A stretch of DNA of 64,000 nt from Marinobacterium jannaschii DSM 6295. GTDB taxonomy: Bacteria; Pseudomonadota; Gammaproteobacteria; Pseudomonadales; Balneatricaceae. Of the stretch, positions 1,563-10,490 are shown in pieces. The stretch spans positions 248,001-312,000 of the forward strand of contig NZ_JHVJ01000007.1 of NCBI RefSeq assembly GCF_000620085.1, read 5' to 3'. The number at the start of each line of letters is the position of its first letter. Position 1 is the first letter of the stretch. Below the pieces are notes generated by a model. It was given only the letters and a program-made list of their open reading frames with translations, searched no databases and was not told the DNA's origin. The translations under genes and the position numbers were made by a program.

Positions 1563-2572
1563 TACGCTCTCCCGGTTGCTTTAGCAGCCGCTTCCAGGAT
1601 ACCGATAGCCTTTTTATTGCGATCAGATTTCGCCGCTTCCTCAGCCCAGATCACTTTAGCCGCATTACGCAGACGCGCAGAGTCCTCAGCACTCAGTGAG
1701 TTCAGCTCAAACAGACCGCTGTTACCGGCATCGATAGAACCGCTCACCATCCAGGTGTGCATCTTGCTTGCATGCTTGGCAAAAGAGGTTTCAATAATGG
1801 CGCGCTGATCATCAGTCATCGCTTTCCACTTGTCCATATTGATCAGCATCTGATCGGTATAACCCGGGCTCACCATATTCAGAGAAGTATAGTGCTTAGC
1901 CGCTTCATACAGCTTCATGGACATATACTCATTGGTACCGGCATAGATAACACCGTCGATCGCACCCGTACTCAGACCGATATACAGCTCGGACCCAGGC
2001 AGGAATACAGTCGGGATACCAAACTGGTCGAGGATTTTTGCCACACTCGGTGTCGCACGGATCTTCATCTTTTTCAGATCATCGAGGCTGTTCACCGGCT
2101 TCTTGGTCAACAGATCAAATGGGCCACCCATAATCGGGCCCAGGTAGTGCACATTCTGCTCCGCATAACCTTCTCGGATCAGGTCGATCAGGCCCTTGGT
2201 TTCCATGATGTACATCGCTTCATCATAGTTAGTCCAGGCACCTGGCAGACCGGCCTCAATAGAAGCAATATCCAGCTGACCAGGCCAGTAACCTGCATAG
2301 CCCTGACACATATCGATGGTACCTTTACCAACAGCCTGGAACATCTCAGCATCCGGCACCAGAGAACTACCAGTGTAGCGGCGAATACGCAGAGATTTTT
2401 TTGAAGCTGTCTTCACATCATCAGTAAAGGATTTGAATATATCGTTTGCCTCCTTACCCCAGTAAGTCTGCATGCGCAAACTGGTCGCAGCCTGAGCAGA
2501 AGTAGATGTCACGGCAAGTGGTGCCGCAGCCAGACCGGCTGCCGCTGCTTTCAGAAGATTACGACGATTCAT
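1562..2572 (-). CDS. TRAP transporter substrate-binding protein (DctP family), Tat-type signal
   Basis: Periplasmic solute-binding protein of the TRAP operon, 336 residues. The N-terminus MNRRNLLKAAAAGLAAAP has a twin-arginine motif (RRNLLK) followed by a hydrophobic stretch and an Ala-x-Ala cleavage site (AQA) near residue 28, so export is predicted through Tat. The body shows DctP hallmarks: KKMKIRATPSVAK with the ligand-binding Arg, a LYIGLSTGAIDG segment, and repeated Tyr/Trp near the cleft. Tat-exported members often bind keto acids, aromatic acids or metal-complexed ligands, but no ligand can be assigned. It is first in the operon, with a 430-base upstream region likely to hold its promoter. 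Confidence 0.92.
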   Translation of the reverse strand: MNRRNLLKAAAAGLAAAPLAVTSTSAQAATSLRMQTYWGKEANDIFKSFTDDVKTASKKSLRIRRYTGSSLVPDAEMFQAVGKGTIDMCQGYAGYWPGQLDIASIEAGLPGAWTNYDEAMYIMETKGLIDLIREGYAEQNVHYLGPIMGGPFDLLTKKPVNSLDDLKKMKIRATPSVAKILDQFGIPTVFLPGSELYIGLSTGAIDGVIYAGTNEYMSMKLYEAAKHYTSLNMVSPGYTDQMLINMDKWKAMTDDQRAIIETSFAKHASKMHTWMVSGSIDAGNSGLFELNSLSAEDSARLRNAAKVIWAEEAAKSDRNKKAIGILEAAAKATGRA

Positions 2573-3003
2573 AATTTAGTACTCTCTTTGTACACGCTTT
2601 TATTTTTATCTAAAACAGGCTAGCCAATCAGAAAAGTGATCTGCGTCAGCGCGCAGAACTCTCCCACATGGCAGCCAGTCCTGCTTTAAATCCAATCTGA
2701 AACAACGCCTAGTTAAGCGGTTAAAACTCTATCTTATATAACGCAAAGCGACATCCGTATATCAACGTACGACCGGTTTACAAATCATTACATCCGCGTA
2801 CATTTTTCAGCCAATGCCAGAGAACATGGCAGCTCCTGACATAAAACCATTCAGCGCCCACCAACAACACTGAATCAAAGATAGCTGATAATCCAAACGA
2901 TGACAGAGCAAACAGGCTATAGACAGAAGCGAAAGCGGGGATTCAAATAATAAAAGCAGAAAGGGAATTGCGATAGCAATAGCAGGATAGAGCAATAGAT
3001 GAA
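2573..3003. promoter_or_regulatory. Intergenic region upstream of the TRAP operon
   Basis: About 430 bases without a credible gene. The half nearest the TRAP operon is AT-rich and should carry its promoter; on the minus strand a TTATATAAGAT stretch near 2730-2745 could hold a -10 box, but I cannot pair it confidently with a -35. GTAC-containing sites (TTGTACAC near 2590, CGTACG near 2765) look like pieces of an operator, without a recognisable consensus. The half nearest the tRNAs shows no T-tailed hairpin, so I cannot place the tRNA operon terminator. Confidence 0.35.
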
Positions 3004-3079
3004 TGGCGTCCCATAGGGGGTTCGAACCCCTGTTACTGCCGTGAAAGGGCAGTGTCCTAGGCCACTAGACGAATGGGAC
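3004..3079 (-). tRNA. tRNA-Glu (TTC), copy 2
   Basis: 76 bases with encoded CCA. On the minus strand it begins GTCCCATTCGTCTAGTGG and ends with T-arm GGGGTTCGAACCCC, acceptor ATGGGAC, discriminator G and CCA. The anticodon loop CTTTCAC gives anticodon TTC. The anticodon stem is CTGCC/GGCAG, differing from the other copy by a compensated pair (T-A instead of C-G). It is last of the four tRNAs in transcription order. Confidence 0.97.
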
Positions 3080-3117
3080 GCACAGGCTTTTCATAGAGAA
3101 TAATGAAAAGTAAAGAT

Positions 3118-3193
3118 TGGTGGAGCCTAGCGGGATCGAACCGCTGACCTCAACACTGCCAGTGTTGCGCTCTCCCAGCTGAGCTAAGGCCCC
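3118..3193 (-). tRNA. tRNA-Ala (GGC), copy 2
   Basis: 76 bases with encoded CCA. On the minus strand: acceptor GGGGCCT, D arm TAGCTCAGCTGGGAGAGC, anticodon arm CAACA-CTGGCAG-TGTTG (anticodon GGC), T arm GCGGTTCGATCCCGC, acceptor AGGCTCC, A, CCA. Identical to the copy at 3307-3382. Confidence 0.97.
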
Positions 3194-3207
3194 ACACACA
3201 ATAAGGA

Positions 3208-3283
3208 TGGCGTCCCATAGGGGGTTCGAACCCCTGTTACCGCCGTGAAAGGGCGGTGTCCTAGGCCACTAGACGAATGGGAC
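3208..3283 (-). tRNA. tRNA-Glu (TTC), copy 1
   Basis: 76 bases with encoded CCA and the same arms as the copy at 3004-3079, except that the anticodon stem reads CCGCC/GGCGG. Anticodon loop CTTTCAC, anticodon TTC. It lies between the two tRNA-Ala genes, 23 bases after the first. Confidence 0.97.
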
Positions 3284-3306
3284 ACTACATACTCAATGCA
3301 ATCTTT

Positions 3307-3382
3307 TGGTGGAGCCTAGCGGGATCGAACCGCTGACCTCAACACTGCCAGTGTTGCGCTCTCCCAGCTGAGCTAAGGCCCC
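3307..3382 (-). tRNA. tRNA-Ala (GGC), copy 1
   Basis: 76 bases with encoded CCA; first gene of the four-tRNA unit. Anticodon arm CAACA-CTGGCAG-TGTTG reads GGC. A strong promoter begins 17 bases upstream on the minus strand. Confidence 0.97.
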
Positions 3383-5642: not shown

Positions 5643-6662
5643 ATGCAAGATTTTACTCAAGAAAGCCGTCCCGATCCTGTGAATCTTAAGCCCGTTTCTG
5701 TAAATCGCCGCTTTTGCGTCGCCCCCATGCTGGACTGGACAACCAGTCACTGCCGTGTCTTTCACAGAAGGATCAGCCAGCATGCCGTACTTTATACGGA
5801 AATGGTTACAACCGGCGCATTGATCCATGCGGATGAAGCCCGCTTCCTCCGTTACGACCCCAGCGAGCAACCGGTCGCCCTGCAGTTGGGAGGCAGCAAT
5901 CCCTCAGAGCTGACTAAGTGTAGCCAAATGGCCGAACAATGGGGTTACAACGAGGTTAATCTGAATGTGGGCTGCCCCAGCGACCGGGTTCAGAACAATA
6001 TGATCGGCGCCTGCCTGATGGCCCACCCGGAACTGGTCGCCGAATGCCTGAGCCAGATGCAGCAGGCTGTCAGCATACCGGTCACGGTTAAGCACCGACT
6101 TGGCATAGATGATATGAACAGCTATGAAGAGCTGCATCACTTTGTCGATATAGTGCGCCAGTCGGGATGCAGAACCTTCATTATCCATGCCCGCAAGGCC
6201 ATCCTGCAGGGACTGAGCCCAAAGGAAAACCGCGATATCCCGCCACTAATATATGACTGGGTCTACCGTATAAAGCAGGCATTTCCGGAACTGGAGATTA
6301 TCATTAACGGCGGCATTAAAACTCTTGATGAATGCGAACAACATCTGCAACATATCGATGGTGTAATGCTGGGCCGGGAAGCCTACCAAAACCCCTACAT
6401 GATGGCAGAGGTTGATCAACGCCTTTATGGCACCGAATCGCCCACCCCAGACAGAAAGCAGATCGCTACTGAACTGATCCCTTATATCGAAACCCAGCTG
6501 GAGCAGGGCGTGTACCTGAACCATATGCTGCGCCATATACTGGGGCTGTTTCATGCACAAAGAGGCGGCAGACAGTTCCGCCGCTACATCAGCGAGAATG
6601 CACACAAGCCAGGCGCTGGCGTGGAAGTACTCAGATCTGCACTTGATCTGATTCCAGACTAA
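5643..6662 (+). CDS. dusA: tRNA-dihydrouridine(20/20a) synthase
   Basis: FMN enzyme reducing uridines 20/20a in the D loop of tRNAs. 339 residues with the DusA start [19 protein letters not shown], the substrate/FMN segment [12 protein letters not shown] (catalytic Cys in GCPS) and the late [10 protein letters not shown] and [12 protein letters not shown] phosphate-binding segments. The PMLDWT and C-terminal RQFRRYISE features separate DusA from DusB and DusC. It precedes tal by 24 bases, as in Pseudomonas. Confidence 0.95.
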
Positions 6663-6686: not shown

Positions 6687-7640
6687 ATGGCCACTCAGCT
6701 CGACCAACTTAAAGCAATCACTACCGTTGTCGCCGACACCGGAGACATCGAAGCGATTCGCACCTTTAAACCGGTTGATGCCACGACCAACCCATCACTA
6801 CTGCTTAAAGCAGCGGGTATCGCCGAATATCAACCACTGCTGACCAGTGCCAAAGAATGGGCACAACGCCAGGGTGGAGATAGCCAGTCGTTGCTGAGCA
6901 ATATGACCGATCGCTTTGCCGTTGAGATTGGCCGCGAAATTCTCAAAATCATTCCAGGCCGCATCTCCACCGAAGTAGATGCCCGCCTTTCATTTGATAC
7001 CACGGCAACGATCAACCAGGCCCGCAAGCTTATCGCCATGTATGAAGAGCTGGGCATTGGTCGTGAGCGCATATTAATTAAGATCGCATCCACCTGGGAA
7101 GGCATCAGCGCTGCCAAGACACTCGAGCAGGAAGGGGTTAACTGCAACCTCACCCTGCTTTTCAGCTTTACCCAGGCCGTTGCCTGTGCCGATGCTGGCA
7201 CATACCTGATCTCCCCCTTTGTTGGCCGCATCCTGGACTGGCACAAAAAGAGTACCCCGGATGCAGACCTCTCAGGCCCAGCCGATCCCGGCGTACAATC
7301 AGTAAGCAAGATATACAACCACTATAAAGCCAGCGGCTATAACACGATCGTTATGGGTGCCAGCTTCCGCAACATTGAAGAGATTCGTCAGTTAGCAGGC
7401 TGCGATCGACTCACGATTGCTCCAGCCCTGATGCAGGAACTGCAACAATGCGAGTTACCACTACAAAGAATGCTAAACCCGGAACAGGGCAGCATTAGCC
7501 AGGAGACTCCCCTCAGCGAGGGTCAGTTCCGCTGGGGCATGAATGAAGACCCGATGGCCACAGAGAAGCTGGCTGAAGGGATCAGAAAGTTTGCCGAAGA
7601 CCAGATCAAGCTGGAACAACTCCTCAGCAAACCGCAATAA
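6687..7640 (+). CDS. tal: Transaldolase
   Basis: Pentose phosphate pathway enzyme moving a dihydroxyacetone unit from sedoheptulose-7-phosphate to glyceraldehyde-3-phosphate. 317 residues, matching E. coli TalB. Seen: the N-terminal [12 protein letters not shown], the [13 protein letters not shown] segment, and the Schiff-base lysine in [12 protein letters not shown] near residue 132. Probably cotranscribed with dusA and followed by a terminator. Confidence 0.97.
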
Positions 7641-7690: not shown

Positions 7691-7735
7691 GCTCTTTATT
7701 TTAAGCCCAGAAGCTCAACGCTTCTTTCAGGCATT

Positions 7736-7770
7736 AAAAAGGCCCGATAACTATCCCGTTATCGAGCCTT
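7736..7770 (-). terminator. Terminator of the STAS/PP2C unit or of the sRNA candidate
   Basis: Stem AAGGC-(mismatch)-CGATAAC / GTTATCG-GCCTT on 7739-7770, followed on the minus strand by TTTTTAA. It lies about 150 bases after the STAS gene stop, an unusually long 3' region. Confidence 0.8.
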
Positions 7771-7900
7771 ATCCCAGCCTCCCTGCCGGACACCACATCA
7801 TTCCGTGAGCGGTGTAGAGCCTGATCTACTCATCCTGAGTTTATTCGCTCCTGCGCCTCAAGCTCTGGGGAATATTCTACCAATCCGGCTCTGAATTTAT
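7736..7900 (-). ncRNA. Candidate CsrB/RsmY-type sRNA with GGA hairpin loops
   Basis: Read on the minus strand, this stretch forms five consecutive hairpins with GGA in the loop: CGC-AGGA-GCG (7846-7855), ACTCA-GGA-TGAGT (7828-7840), TCA-CGGAA-TGA (7798-7808), a 5-pair stem closing AGGGAG (7774-7789), and the terminator, whose loop is GGGATA (7752-7757). A further GGA lies near 7890. GGA-loop hairpins are the binding sites of CsrA/RsmA, and a series of them ending in an intrinsic terminator is the architecture of CsrA-sequestering RNAs. The 5' end is unknown; an AT-rich TTATATAAA near 7900 could be a -10 box. It could instead be the structured 3'UTR of the STAS gene. Confidence 0.5.
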
Positions 7901-7920
7901 ATAAGACAAATTCTTAATTT

Positions 7921-8406
7921 TCAGCGAGCAGCCTCAAGCGTCAGCACCAGATCCTTAAACGCCTCGCGATTCACCTCATTCAGCTCCATCAGTACTCGGT
8001 GAGCAGCAATAATTCGTTCTCGCATAAGCTCTTCTGATTCCAGCATCATTGGCAGCTGCTTCAGATCAGAGCAGCTGGTTGGAAGCTCGGTAAGCAAAAC
8101 AAATATATGATCAAACCCCATACTCATCAGAATATGGGTAATATCGGAGTTCGTTGAAACCACCGCCGGATCTGGCAAGCCTGAGCGCCTGGCCTTGATA
8201 GACAACTTTGCAATCAGACCCAGCGAGGTACTATCGATCGCCTCGGTTTCGGTGAGATCAACAAGTATCTCGCCAACCGCATTCCCCTGCAGAGCCTGCT
8301 CAATATGACTATCCAGCGTAGCACACAAGGTCAACCGGACATCACCAACAAACTTAAGAACGTAGTGACCATCAAGGCAAGCTGAATAAATAGAGCCTTC
8401 TTTCAT
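7921..8406 (-). CDS. STAS-domain anti-sigma factor antagonist-like protein
   Basis: 161 residues. The N-terminal half is a STAS domain: DVRLTLCATLDSHIE, ILVDLTETEAIDSTSLG (phosphorylatable Ser in DSTSLG, residues 58-63), then SIKARRSGLPDPAVV. The C-terminal 50 residues are helical. It starts 4 bases after the PP2C regulator stop, so the pair is probably cotranslated. By family knowledge the PP2C enzyme dephosphorylates the STAS Ser, freeing it to bind an anti-sigma kinase or another partner, as in the HsbR/HsbA pair of Pseudomonas. No cognate kinase lies nearby. Confidence 0.85.
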   Translation of the reverse strand: MKEGSIYSACLDGHYVLKFVGDVRLTLCATLDSHIEQALQGNAVGEILVDLTETEAIDSTSLGLIAKLSIKARRSGLPDPAVVSTNSDITHILMSMGFDHIFVLLTELPTSCSDLKQLPMMLESEELMRERIIAAHRVLMELNEVNREAFKDLVLTLEAAR

Positions 8407-8410
8407 ACTA

Positions 8411-9577
8411 CTATCTGGAAATCGTCATTATCGCTATATCATCCGGCGCCATACTGACACCGCCCGAAATAAGCGCCCGCTGCAAATCATGGGCCGAACC
8501 ACCTTGCAGACGATGCACCAGAGACATAAGCGAAGCCTCTTTAGCTTCCATGCCATGATCCGGGAGCACCTCAAGGACACCATCTGAGAACAACGTTAAC
8601 TGAAAAGACTCAGGTAACTCAATGCTTCTTTCATCAAATACCGGCTCTTCAAACAATCCTACCGGCATCCCCCGCCCCTTCAGGAAATCTATCTGCTCCC
8701 CACTTTGAAGCAATGGCATCGGATGCTGACCACCAATGGCATAGGTCAGCCGATTCTCATCAAGATCTATTATTCCAGCAAAGATACTCAGGTGCTTACC
8801 CAGGGCGGCCTCAAGAAGCTCCTTATTAATACGCTTCAGAAACTGAAGGGGCGACAAAATATCATAGCTGGAACCGCGCCGGAAATTGCGCAACAGCCGC
8901 CCGGTCATATTTTTTAGCAGCACCGTCACCAGTGCAGATGAGGCCCCGTGCCCTGAAACATCAGCAAGATAGAAAACCACACGATGCTTATCTAAAGCAA
9001 TAGCATCCACAAAGTCCCCACTCAGATAAAGCGATGGTAGCAGGGTATAATCCACCGTCATACCAGCCAAGACCTGCTGTTCCGGCGGCAACATATTCTG
9101 CTGAACCTTCAGCGCAGCTTGCTGATCGTCCTTCAACTCGGCCAGACGCTGCTCCAACTCTTCACGATAGCGCTGATTGTCTTCCAATAACTGCGCCTGC
9201 CTCAATGCGGAGGAGACCAGTTCAACGAATTCTTCAGATTGACTATGCAGCGAAGCCACTGGAAACAGGTCGGACGCCCCCGACCTTAAAGCCCCGAACA
9301 ACAGGGAGGAGTCATCTTCATCCAGCAGAACCACAAGAGGCTTACAACGATGGCGACAAGCAATATCCTTTACTGCAGCCAACACACCCTCAGCGCCCGG
9401 CCTGAAAATCACTACCGAATAAGCCCGCTCCTCAAGTGCAACCAACGCCTCACCGAGTGAAAACCGGGTGACAACCCGAAAGGCAGGCAGCTCAGCCTCA
9501 TTGAGCATTTCAAATACTGTATCAATCACCTGCGATGGACGATCAATCAATAGTACAGCCTGATCCGCATGCCCCAT
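8411..9577 (-). CDS. PP2C-type phosphatase with a degenerate receiver domain
   Basis: 388 residues: a receiver-like domain (about 5-125), a coiled linker (about 130-165) and a SpoIIE/PP2C serine phosphatase domain (about 170-388). The phosphatase keeps its metal ligands in LSGDFVDAI, LADVSGHGASSAL and LFSDGVLEVLP. The receiver resembles the fold, but the phospho-acceptor position reads VVIFRPGAEG (Arg59 where Asp is expected), the acidic pair is IDR, and the conserved Lys is missing (LFPVAS). Input is therefore unlikely to be classical phosphotransfer. The start has GGGAGG 7 bases upstream. It pairs with the STAS gene downstream. Confidence 0.88.
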   Translation of the reverse strand: MGHADQAVLLIDRPSQVIDTVFEMLNEAELPAFRVVTRFSLGEALVALEERAYSVVIFRPGAEGVLAAVKDIACRHRCKPLVVLLDEDDSSLLFGALRSGASDLFPVASLHSQSEEFVELVSSALRQAQLLEDNQRYREELEQRLAELKDDQQAALKVQQNMLPPEQQVLAGMTVDYTLLPSLYLSGDFVDAIALDKHRVVFYLADVSGHGASSALVTVLLKNMTGRLLRNFRRGSSYDILSPLQFLKRINKELLEAALGKHLSIFAGIIDLDENRLTYAIGGQHPMPLLQSGEQIDFLKGRGMPVGLFEEPVFDERSIELPESFQLTLFSDGVLEVLPDHGMEAKEASLMSLVHRLQGGSAHDLQRALISGGVSMAPDDIAIMTISR

Positions 9578-9638: not shown

Positions 9639-10340
9639 CTAGAAATCATCGTCATCAAATGACTCTAGCTGCCCGTCGTTCACCTGAAATTCCCGACGCT
9701 GCAGATATAGATTTCTGATAAAAAGGTACTTGTCACCGGAAATAAGCCTTTCAGCTTCCAGCAACCCAGCCCGCTGATCGATAGCACGTAATGCCGTCAG
9801 GCTATAACGCAATGTATCATCTTCCAGGTTGTTGTATGGAGAGGTGACGCTCTCCGCAACAAAGCCGACACCATCCCGTACCGTTGACGGGCCAAAGAAA
9901 GGCAACATCAGGTAGGGGCCACTTTCAAAACCCCAGTAGCCCAAGGTCTGACCAAAATCCTCGTCTGTCTCAGGTAACCCCATCGGGGTTGCCACATCGA
10001 TAAACCCCGCCAGGCCAATTGTGGTATTGAATGTCAGGCGAGCAAAATCATTCAATGCAGGTTCGAATTTTGCCTGAAGCACATTATTGACGAAGGAACC
10101 AATATCACTGATATTGCCAAAGAAGTTGGAGACCCCTGTCTCTACAACATCCGGTGTCACAGCTTTATACCCCAGGGTGGCAGGCTTCAATAAATAGCGG
10201 TCAAAGCCTTCATTGAATGCAAAGATACTGCGGTTCATCCCCTCCCAGGGATCTACCTCTGCCTCTTCCGCAAACACGGGCACAGAAACCGCTGAAGCTA
10301 TCACACCGACAGCAACCAGCTTAAGTAACATCTGCTTCAT
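9639..10340 (-). CDS. mlaA: MlaA (VacJ) family phospholipid-retrieval protein without a lipobox
   Basis: Outer-membrane component of the Mla pathway, which removes misplaced phospholipid from the outer leaflet. The start is set at the ATG at 10338-10340, 6 bases after GAGGAT, giving 233 residues; the longer frame to 10466 lacks a site. Core motifs: DPWEGMNRSIFAFNE, DVVETGVSNFFGNI, ETDEDFGQTLGYWG and SGPYLMLPFFGPST. The signal peptide MKQMLLKLVAVGVIASAVSV ends PVFAEEAE with no lipobox Cys, so cleavage by signal peptidase I is predicted; E. coli MlaA is a lipoprotein. Confidence 0.92.
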   Translation of the reverse strand: MKQMLLKLVAVGVIASAVSVPVFAEEAEVDPWEGMNRSIFAFNEGFDRYLLKPATLGYKAVTPDVVETGVSNFFGNISDIGSFVNNVLQAKFEPALNDFARLTFNTTIGLAGFIDVATPMGLPETDEDFGQTLGYWGFESGPYLMLPFFGPSTVRDGVGFVAESVTSPYNNLEDDTLRYSLTALRAIDQRAGLLEAERLISGDKYLFIRNLYLQRREFQVNDGQLESFDDDDF

Positions 10341-10464
10341 AACATCCTCATTCAATATCAGGCTCCGTGCAATTTTATACCCCTTACAACTCAACAATAA
10401 ACACTCGGAGAAAAATAACCGGCAATTCAGCCGCAGAAAACATCGCACGCTAAAAACCGGGCAC

Positions 10465-10490
10465 AAAAAAGGGCCCCCTAAGGAGCCCTT
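10465..10490 (-). terminator. Terminator of the porin gene
   Basis: On the minus strand AAGGGCTCC / GGGGCCCTT (one mismatch) with loop TTAG, followed by TTTTTT. It starts about 30 bases after the porin stop. Confidence 0.85.

Follow-up and report, generated by a model that had tools for sequence, protein, structure and literature searches.

The architecture of a sponge built from GGA hairpins is known from the CsrB RNA of E. coli, which measures about 360 nt and carries about 20 sites. According to the available part of PMC9788540, the gene order fdxA-rsmZ is conserved in Pseudomonas, and Alcanivorax dieselolei has two CsrA-related sRNAs, CsrR1 and CsrR2, with five to six unpaired GGAs, which adjoin hfq or a ferredoxin gene and of which CsrR2 has its own promoter. 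Azotobacter has eight Rsm RNAs (PMC12923157, in excerpt), and for Shewanella a UvrY-type box of the form TGTAAGN6CTTACA is given in the accessible text of PMC3171408. The same excerpt of PMC12923157 (2026) states that the Gac-Rsm system governs RpoS proteolysis via ClpXP in A. vinelandii, that RpoS rises in A. vinelandii and P. aeruginosa when rssB and/or rssC are inactivated, and that RssB and RssC are both proposed to be necessary for RpoS degradation in Pseudomonadaceae. The HsbR-HsbA switch is treated, together with the effect that it has on rsmY, in the available passages of PMC6482189.

The stretch of DNA analysed here, 64,000 nt in length and hereafter called the window, comprises bases 248001-312000 of contig 6 in the genome of Marinobacterium jannaschii DSM 6295 (5.18 Mb, 39 contigs). 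Directly behind rssC, and on the same strand as rssB-rssC, it holds a GGA-rich sRNA which from its sequence we predict with high confidence to be a CsrA-sequestering RNA of the Csr/Rsm type. It would belong to this known kind, and no Rfam model matches it. Like RsmZ/PrrB and RsmY of Pseudomonas it is short (the Rfam models have 133 and 121 positions) and combines GGAs in loops with an upstream palindrome; unlike them it has a box of different sequence, scores below gathering with RF00166 and RF00195, and lies behind rssC whereas Pseudomonas rsmZ stands in fdxA-rsmZ order. The GGA-hairpin architecture is that of CsrB and CsrC of E. coli, but the RNA is much shorter than CsrB. As with RsmZ1-7 and RsmY of Azotobacter there are several copies per genome, and as with CsrB1 and CsrB2 of Shewanella there is a box upstream, albeit one that differs in sequence from the UvrY-type box found there. 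CsrR1 and CsrR2 of A. dieselolei resemble it by description, being marine gammaproteobacterial RNAs of similar GGA count, yet their neighbours differ. Among the open-access literature matches listed none describes a Csr RNA from these genera and none names 'CsrA' together with 'Marinobacterium', and the available portion of the main text of PMC5568370 makes no mention of Marinomonas, Oceanospirill-, Marinobacter or Hahella. Since the scope of these searches is open-access only, they are weak evidence of novelty.

Fold and GGA hairpins of the RNA

The features of the locus and of the predicted RNA, in window coordinates, are as follows.

9639-10466, minus strand: mlaA-like gene (frame reading)
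8411-9577, minus strand: rssB, degenerate receiver and PP2C phosphatase (Pfam SpoIIE; structures 3eq2/3f7a; NCBIfam RssB best)
7921-8406, minus strand: rssC, STAS anti-sigma-factor antagonist (Pfam STAS; NCBIfam RssC best; PA7 gene order)
7901-7916, minus strand: palindromic box TAAGAATTTGTCTTAT, candidate UvrY/GacA-type upstream activating site (conserved across genomes)
7874-7879, minus strand: -10 hexamer TAGAAT, predicted promoter of the sRNA itself (conserved spacing to the box)
7737-7866, minus strand: GGA sRNA (fold, conservation, covariation, model R1)
7817-7865, minus strand: 5' domain, 8-bp stem 7865-7858/7824-7817 around hairpins 1 and 2 (minimum-energy fold)
7846-7855, minus strand: GGA hairpin 1, CGC-AGGA-GCG (minimum-energy fold)
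7828-7840, minus strand: GGA hairpin 2, ACTCA-GGA-TGAGT (minimum-energy fold)
7790-7816, minus strand: GGA hairpin 3, loop CGGAA (minimum-energy fold)
7774-7789, minus strand: GGA hairpin 4, CCGGC-AGGGAG-GCTGG (minimum-energy fold)
7772-7774, minus strand: unpaired GGA at the junction of hairpin 4 and terminator, its first G closing hairpin 4
7736-7770, minus strand: rho-independent terminator, loop GGGATA with GGA at 7756-7754 (minimum-energy fold)
6687-7640, plus strand: tal, beyond the sRNA
5643-6662, plus strand: dusA-like gene, beyond tal

We place the 5' end of the predicted RNA, which measures about 130 nt, 8 nt past the -10 hexamer and its 3' end at the T-run of the terminator. A preliminary description made from the letters had proposed five successive minus-strand hairpins with GGA in the loop, the last being the terminator. 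All five lie where it put them and are contained in the minimum-energy fold of 7905-7730, which reaches -63.9 kcal/mol (z = -4.0) and was equalled by none of 200 shuffles. The core of hairpin 3, TCACGGAATGA at 7808-7798, is nested in a longer stem, 7816-7790. Overlooked at that stage were the unpaired GGA at 7774-7772 and the 8-bp stem that encloses the first two hairpins. Conversely, a further 'GGA near 7890' that had been counted with the RNA (7886-7884) falls upstream of the -10 and thus belongs to the predicted promoter and lies outside the RNA as its start is placed here.

That stems and GGAs should coincide five times by chance had been thought improbable, and the calculation confirms it: the RNA proper (7868-7739) has five GGAs in loops as compared to a mean of 0.82 in dinucleotide shuffles, of which 0 of 2000 reached five, and with mononucleotide shuffles the chance of five is 0.0005. 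The total of six GGAs is ordinary, as 37% of the dinucleotide shuffles reach it, and the special feature of the RNA is therefore the coupling of GGA with loops. When the window was scanned on both strands in 130-nt stretches at 15-nt steps, stretches being folded only if they held at least five GGAs, four or more loop GGAs were predicted at the sRNA site (four overlapping stretches) and at just one other place, about 61705-61576 on the minus strand, which has four.

The whole Rfam library returned only tRNAs from the window, and at 7700-8000 a single snoRNA match (E 8.2) at E<=10. In the proposed search with known models, no CsrB, RsmY or RsmZ (PrrB) model matches the window sRNA; CsrB (RF00018), CsrC and RsmY (RF00195) do not reach their gathering score anywhere in the window.

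Conservation among relatives

The STAS protein was matched in 89 of the 116 genomes of the family. The 700 nt past the stop codon were scanned at 90 STAS loci (87 of the 89 genomes and three second copies), 40 of which were read while the others were judged by box pattern and GGA count only. Box, -10 and GGA-rich sequence ending in a terminator stand behind rssC in 29 genomes, that of M. jannaschii and 28 relatives, from five genera (g1 5, g3 7, g8 3, g12 7 and g16 7, M. jannaschii included). In a thirtieth genome (G011) a match to the covariance model described below lies about 1.3 kb behind the STAS gene, and 4 of the 11 genomes of genus g16 are without an RNA behind rssC. Further rssC/STAS genes (L075, L076, L093, L097-L099) are followed by words that weakly resemble the box; these were discarded upon re-reading, as no GGA-rich RNA comes after them.

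An alignment of the 29 RNAs (A1) has 12 invariant columns, namely seven GGA letters, four positions of the terminator and one A before a GGA loop; the GGA of hairpin 3 is invariant in all 29. With a structure taken from the averaged pairing of these same sequences, which had themselves been chosen by eye for box and GGAs, two-sided changes are seen in 36 of 41 pairs, 76.8% of cells pair as compared to 64.8% in shuffles, and the covariation score is 0.452 versus 0.246 in shuffled alignments (0 of 500) and at most 0.225 with the partners slid. Pairing is strongest in helix 4, i.e. hairpin 3 (87.7% of cells, two-sided changes in 8 of 9 pairs), followed by the terminator helix 6 (83.3%) and by helix 5, i.e. 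hairpin 4 (80.5%, two-sided changes in 5 of 6 pairs), while the helix of the 5' domain is the least conserved (59.5%). The mean number of loop GGAs in the 29 RNAs is 3.86 versus 0.65 in shuffles (60 per RNA), and every RNA exceeds its own shuffle mean; several loop GGAs beyond chance, a mark of the Csr/Rsm class, are thus found in the window RNA and in its relatives. The cross-genome comparison that the preliminary description had called for accordingly shows GGA hairpins that are kept and stems that vary by compensation in 29 genomes. Since the relatives retain hairpins and GGA loops over differing stem letters, we consider it very probable that the RNA is real and subject to selection.

A covariance model trained on the 29 sequences (R1) has matches at E<=0.1 in 64 of the 116 family genomes and in 12 of 16 genera, those to the training sequences arising by construction; the window sRNA, being one of the model's own rows, scores 79.3 bits. 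In genera that contributed no training sequence the best E values are 6.4e-13 (g11), 1.1e-12 (g7), 1.6e-11 (g15), 1.8e-11 (g13), 1.3e-10 (g5) and 1.6e-9 (g10); in genus g2 the best is 3.2e-6. The remaining 52 genomes have no match at E<=0.1 under strict filters, and this, together with the four genomes of g16 mentioned above, shows that the sRNA is not universal. The homologous RNAs of g5, g7, g10, g11, g13 and g15 are found at places other than behind rssC. At 13 of 15 such places read by eye the same palindrome stands upstream, the exceptions being L172 and L177, and for the RNAs at 12 of these 15 places the mean number of loop GGAs is 4.33 versus 0.60 in shuffles, all 12 lying above the shuffle mean. 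These homologs suggest that the sRNA does not need the rssBC neighbourhood. Among the 80 named STAS loci kept of 562, R1 matches strongly in 21 (Pontibacterium, Marinobacterium, Neptuniibacter, Neptunomonas and unclassified bins), each time behind the STAS gene and on its strand; the other 59 have no match (one at E 0.82) and include all loci of Pseudomonas, Zooshikella, Kistimonas, Nitrincola and Motiliproteus and many of Marinobacterium.

In 390 genomes of the order, 26 match R1 at E<=0.01, 11 of them members of the family. Of the 15 matches outside the family, one read per genome, 14 were rejected as terminator- or repeat-like sequences with 0-4 GGAs and no box. The other, L149 (G412:C8:168414-168522), comes from another family of the order, matches at E 3e-5 and has six GGAs with hairpins; judged by these features it may be a real relative, a distant Csr-type RNA. 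Of 369 genomes of the class, two match at E<=1e-4, one being that of M. jannaschii and the other (L338) a terminator-like sequence with three GGAs, which like the 14 just mentioned has the look of a chance match.

Genus g11 carries this same GGA-RNA in tandem arrays, with seven units in G150 (L167, G150:C33:6500-12000, positions 2091-3267; E values of 5e-14 to 3e-6) and four units each in G051, G027, G039 and G151 (L168-L171). By eye, two units of the G150 array have a box and several end in a terminator of their own; among five further arrays a pattern search located the box in just one. A GGA-rich RNA of a second kind was also observed behind the same box. It starts with the near-invariant word GTGGATCTCCTGTTCATGGA, which with up to two mismatches occurs in 59 of the 116 family genomes, and among Rfam models it matches only RsmY, and weakly (21 bits of 57). 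In M. jannaschii it lies at the following places.

G000:C18:33044, 33342 and 33610: second kind of GGA-RNA, in tandem (L012)
G000:C3:1187-1206: second kind of GGA-RNA

The Rfam model PrrB_RsmZ (RF00166) exceeds its cut-off in none of the 116 family genomes and matches 25 of them at E<=0.1, none being that of M. jannaschii. The RNA described here is a candidate CsrA sponge for this family, whose members live in the sea and in saline lakes, with Pontibacterium, Marinobacterium, Neptunomonas, Neptuniibacter, Nitrincola and Motiliproteus among those with names, and in which the RsmZ model does not reach its cut-off, and alignment and covariance model could seed an Rfam family.

The upstream palindrome and its candidate regulator

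The box begins 4 bases past the rssC stop codon (7923-7921), and in several genera the stop codon TAG is itself the first triplet of the box. The -10 hexamer at 7879-7874 puts the start near 7866, just ahead of the closing stem. In all 29 rssC-linked RNAs, and in 34 of 41 GGA-RNAs overall, a TA-rich -10 hexamer starts 37-39 nt after the start of the box (scan range 36-49 nt); it reads exactly TAGAAT in 15 of the 29. The consensus of the box over the 41 RNAs is TAGGAAttttTCCTAT, from a sample in which the 29 rssC-linked members were chosen partly for having a box and L174 was entered at a wrong site. RNAs of the Csr/Rsm class are independent transcripts with a promoter of their own and an intrinsic terminator; the conservation of box, -10 and terminator would be compatible with such a transcript here. 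The M. jannaschii genome has the box six times at up to two mismatches and eight times at up to three, the reversed pattern 0 times at up to three; five of the six precede GGA-RNAs and the sixth, C5:9185, does not. When 96 relatives were searched with the DNA of the whole RNA, the RNA proved too diverged, and most matches beyond its own locus fell on the upstream box, so that it was the promoter that was recognised; one match (G019:C1) spanned the 3' half of the RNA.

Which protein would act on this box? The genome has one CsrA match, of 62 aa, whose adjoining frame is read as aspartate kinase. The best UvrY/GacA candidate (G000:C4:93478) lies 4.4 kb from uvrC, not directly adjoining it, is 43% identical to E. 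coli UvrY and has the NCBIfam UvrY/SirA/GacA family as its best model, at 185 bits against a cut-off of 280. A BarA-like kinase covers model positions 2-799 of 920 at 548 bits against a cut-off of 890. From these comparisons both the UvrY-like and the BarA-like assignment are credible, below the curated cut-offs as they are. The core of the window box, TAAG..CTTA, resembles that of the textbook box, and we consider it probable that a UvrY/GacA-type regulator acts on the palindrome.

One could also envisage a CsrA sponge whose box is bound by some other regulator. The conserved palindrome TAGGAAttttTCCTA is unlike the textbook TGTAAGN6CTTACA, the UvrY-like protein scores under the family cut-off, and elsewhere in the genus what follows the box is at times a different sequence with few GGAs, in places an apparent protein start (in a partial survey of 30 loci, 5 of them without a box by pattern and 6 read on the wrong strand, of which L306 was re-read). 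Yet a diverged activator would fit a non-textbook box, and a palindrome that has a similar core, is suitably placed and precedes two kinds of GGA-RNA is what a Gac-type regulator would be expected to use. We therefore regard a different regulator as unlikely, and retain a UvrY/GacA-type protein as the candidate. At L317, L320 and L324, of the Pontibacterium group, the box also stands before a conserved small ORF that by eye starts with a CC.HC-like motif, and the regulon of the box may thus include more than RNAs.

From what was computed (fold, GGAs in loops, covariation, conservation of box and -10, homologs elsewhere and the presence of CsrA, UvrY-like and BarA-like proteins) we infer the following course of events. 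A UvrY/GacA-type regulator would probably bind the palindromic box at about -35 to -50, and the RNA's own promoter would transcribe a non-coding RNA of about 130 nt that ends at the terminator and works like CsrB or RsmZ. The five loop GGAs and the one unpaired GGA would then bind CsrA dimers, and titration of CsrA would relieve the repression of its mRNA targets.

Neighbouring genes and competing readings

The preliminary description took the neighbouring STAS/PP2C genes to be HsbRA-like and on this ground suggested a link between that switch and the Csr system. Our results point elsewhere. Among solved structures the PP2C protein is closest to 3eq2/3f7a (E 1.5e-72), with E. coli RssB next, and in NCBIfam RssB is its best model (7.8e-87, 292 of 700 bits), as RssC is that of the STAS protein (5.7e-54, 182 of 250 bits); both scores are below the cut-offs of these Pseudomonas-named models. 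The structures 3eq2/3f7a are P. aeruginosa RssB, as stated in the available text of PMC12143880. Pfam finds in the PP2C protein only SpoIIE, at residues 197-387 of 388, and no third domain of the kinase/anti-sigma HsbR type. The closest STAS protein of a named species, among the matches listed, is that of Pontibacterium granulatum (74% identity). The order mlaA - PP2C - STAS - tal - dusA recurs in P. aeruginosa PA7, there with one extra small frame between mlaA and PP2C, and we take the PA7 gene pair to be PA2798/PA2797 in PAO1 numbering. PA2798/PA2797 are called homologs of gigA/gigB in the accessible part of PMC13218686. By gene order and best hits the pair is orthologous to RssC/RssB, and the HsbR-HsbA reading is rejected on gene order and on PDB and NCBIfam best hits. 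If the sRNA is linked to its neighbours, the link would hence concern RpoS turnover and not the HptB/HsbA switch.

Different from the orthologous pair of Azotobacter and Pseudomonas, however, the genes described here are followed by an sRNA, and the receiver of the window RssB (about 9577-9390, at the start of rssB) has Arg in place of the phospho-acceptor Asp. This Asp is absent in 9 of 11 aligned family members, including members of all five genera with an rssC-linked RNA, and the paired acidic residues are lost in 11 of 11; Zooshikella and P. aeruginosa PA7 keep both. Marinobacterium sediminicola and Nitrincola retain the Asp and are without an RNA behind rssC, and in Motiliproteus neither the Asp nor an RNA at that place is present.

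The adjacency of sRNA and rssBC in five genera, a matter of gene order, suggests a Csr-RpoS link. As the RNA stands on the same strand directly behind rssB-rssC, and by eye no terminator is seen between the rssC stop codon and the sRNA, it may also arise by read-through of the operon, which would tie the release of CsrA to the switch for RpoS turnover. Carried further, rssB-rssC and the sRNA could form one module that sets RpoS turnover jointly with Csr release, the sRNA being made by read-through or from the box that lies at the rssC stop codon or overlaps it. In such a module, with the Asp missing from the members sampled in each of the five genera, the RNA arm may have taken over control from the phosphorylation of RssB. 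We hold this module to be doubtful; the location behind rssBC does make a Csr-RpoS connection open to direct genetic test.

The same arrangement could be read to mean that the sRNA is merely a structured 3' UTR or terminator region that stabilises the rssB-rssC mRNA, its GGAs being incidental. Strand, position directly behind rssC and the apparent lack of an intervening terminator would suit such a role. They would not explain, however, why the GGA letters are kept while the stems change, why a box and a -10 of its own stand at fixed distance, why homologous RNAs occur away from rssC in g5, g7, g10, g11, g13 and g15, and why 0 of 2000 shuffles reach five loop GGAs, and we judge the possibility to be very slight. 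The strong structure with its terminator might also suit a cis-regulatory leader or attenuator that acts on a gene further downstream. This is hardly credible, since the RNA leads no gene on the minus strand as far as tal, which as the next gene lies on the opposite strand, and since the letters kept belong to GGAs and terminator and do not form an aptamer-like core. A chance cluster of GGAs in structured DNA, for which the six GGAs in 130 nt are indeed not rare given the composition, has a negligible probability, being refuted by the loop placement (0 of 2000) and by conservation and covariation in the relatives.

What stands of the preliminary description is the reading as a CsrA-sequestering RNA, strongly supported by the GGA loops that do not vary, by conservation and covariation, by the GacA-like palindrome of a predicted promoter of its own and by the homologs at other loci; what does not is the HsbRA-like naming of the neighbours. 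The tRNAs that Rfam returned include four consecutive genes on the minus strand of the window at 3007-3382, which form two pairs with equal scores.
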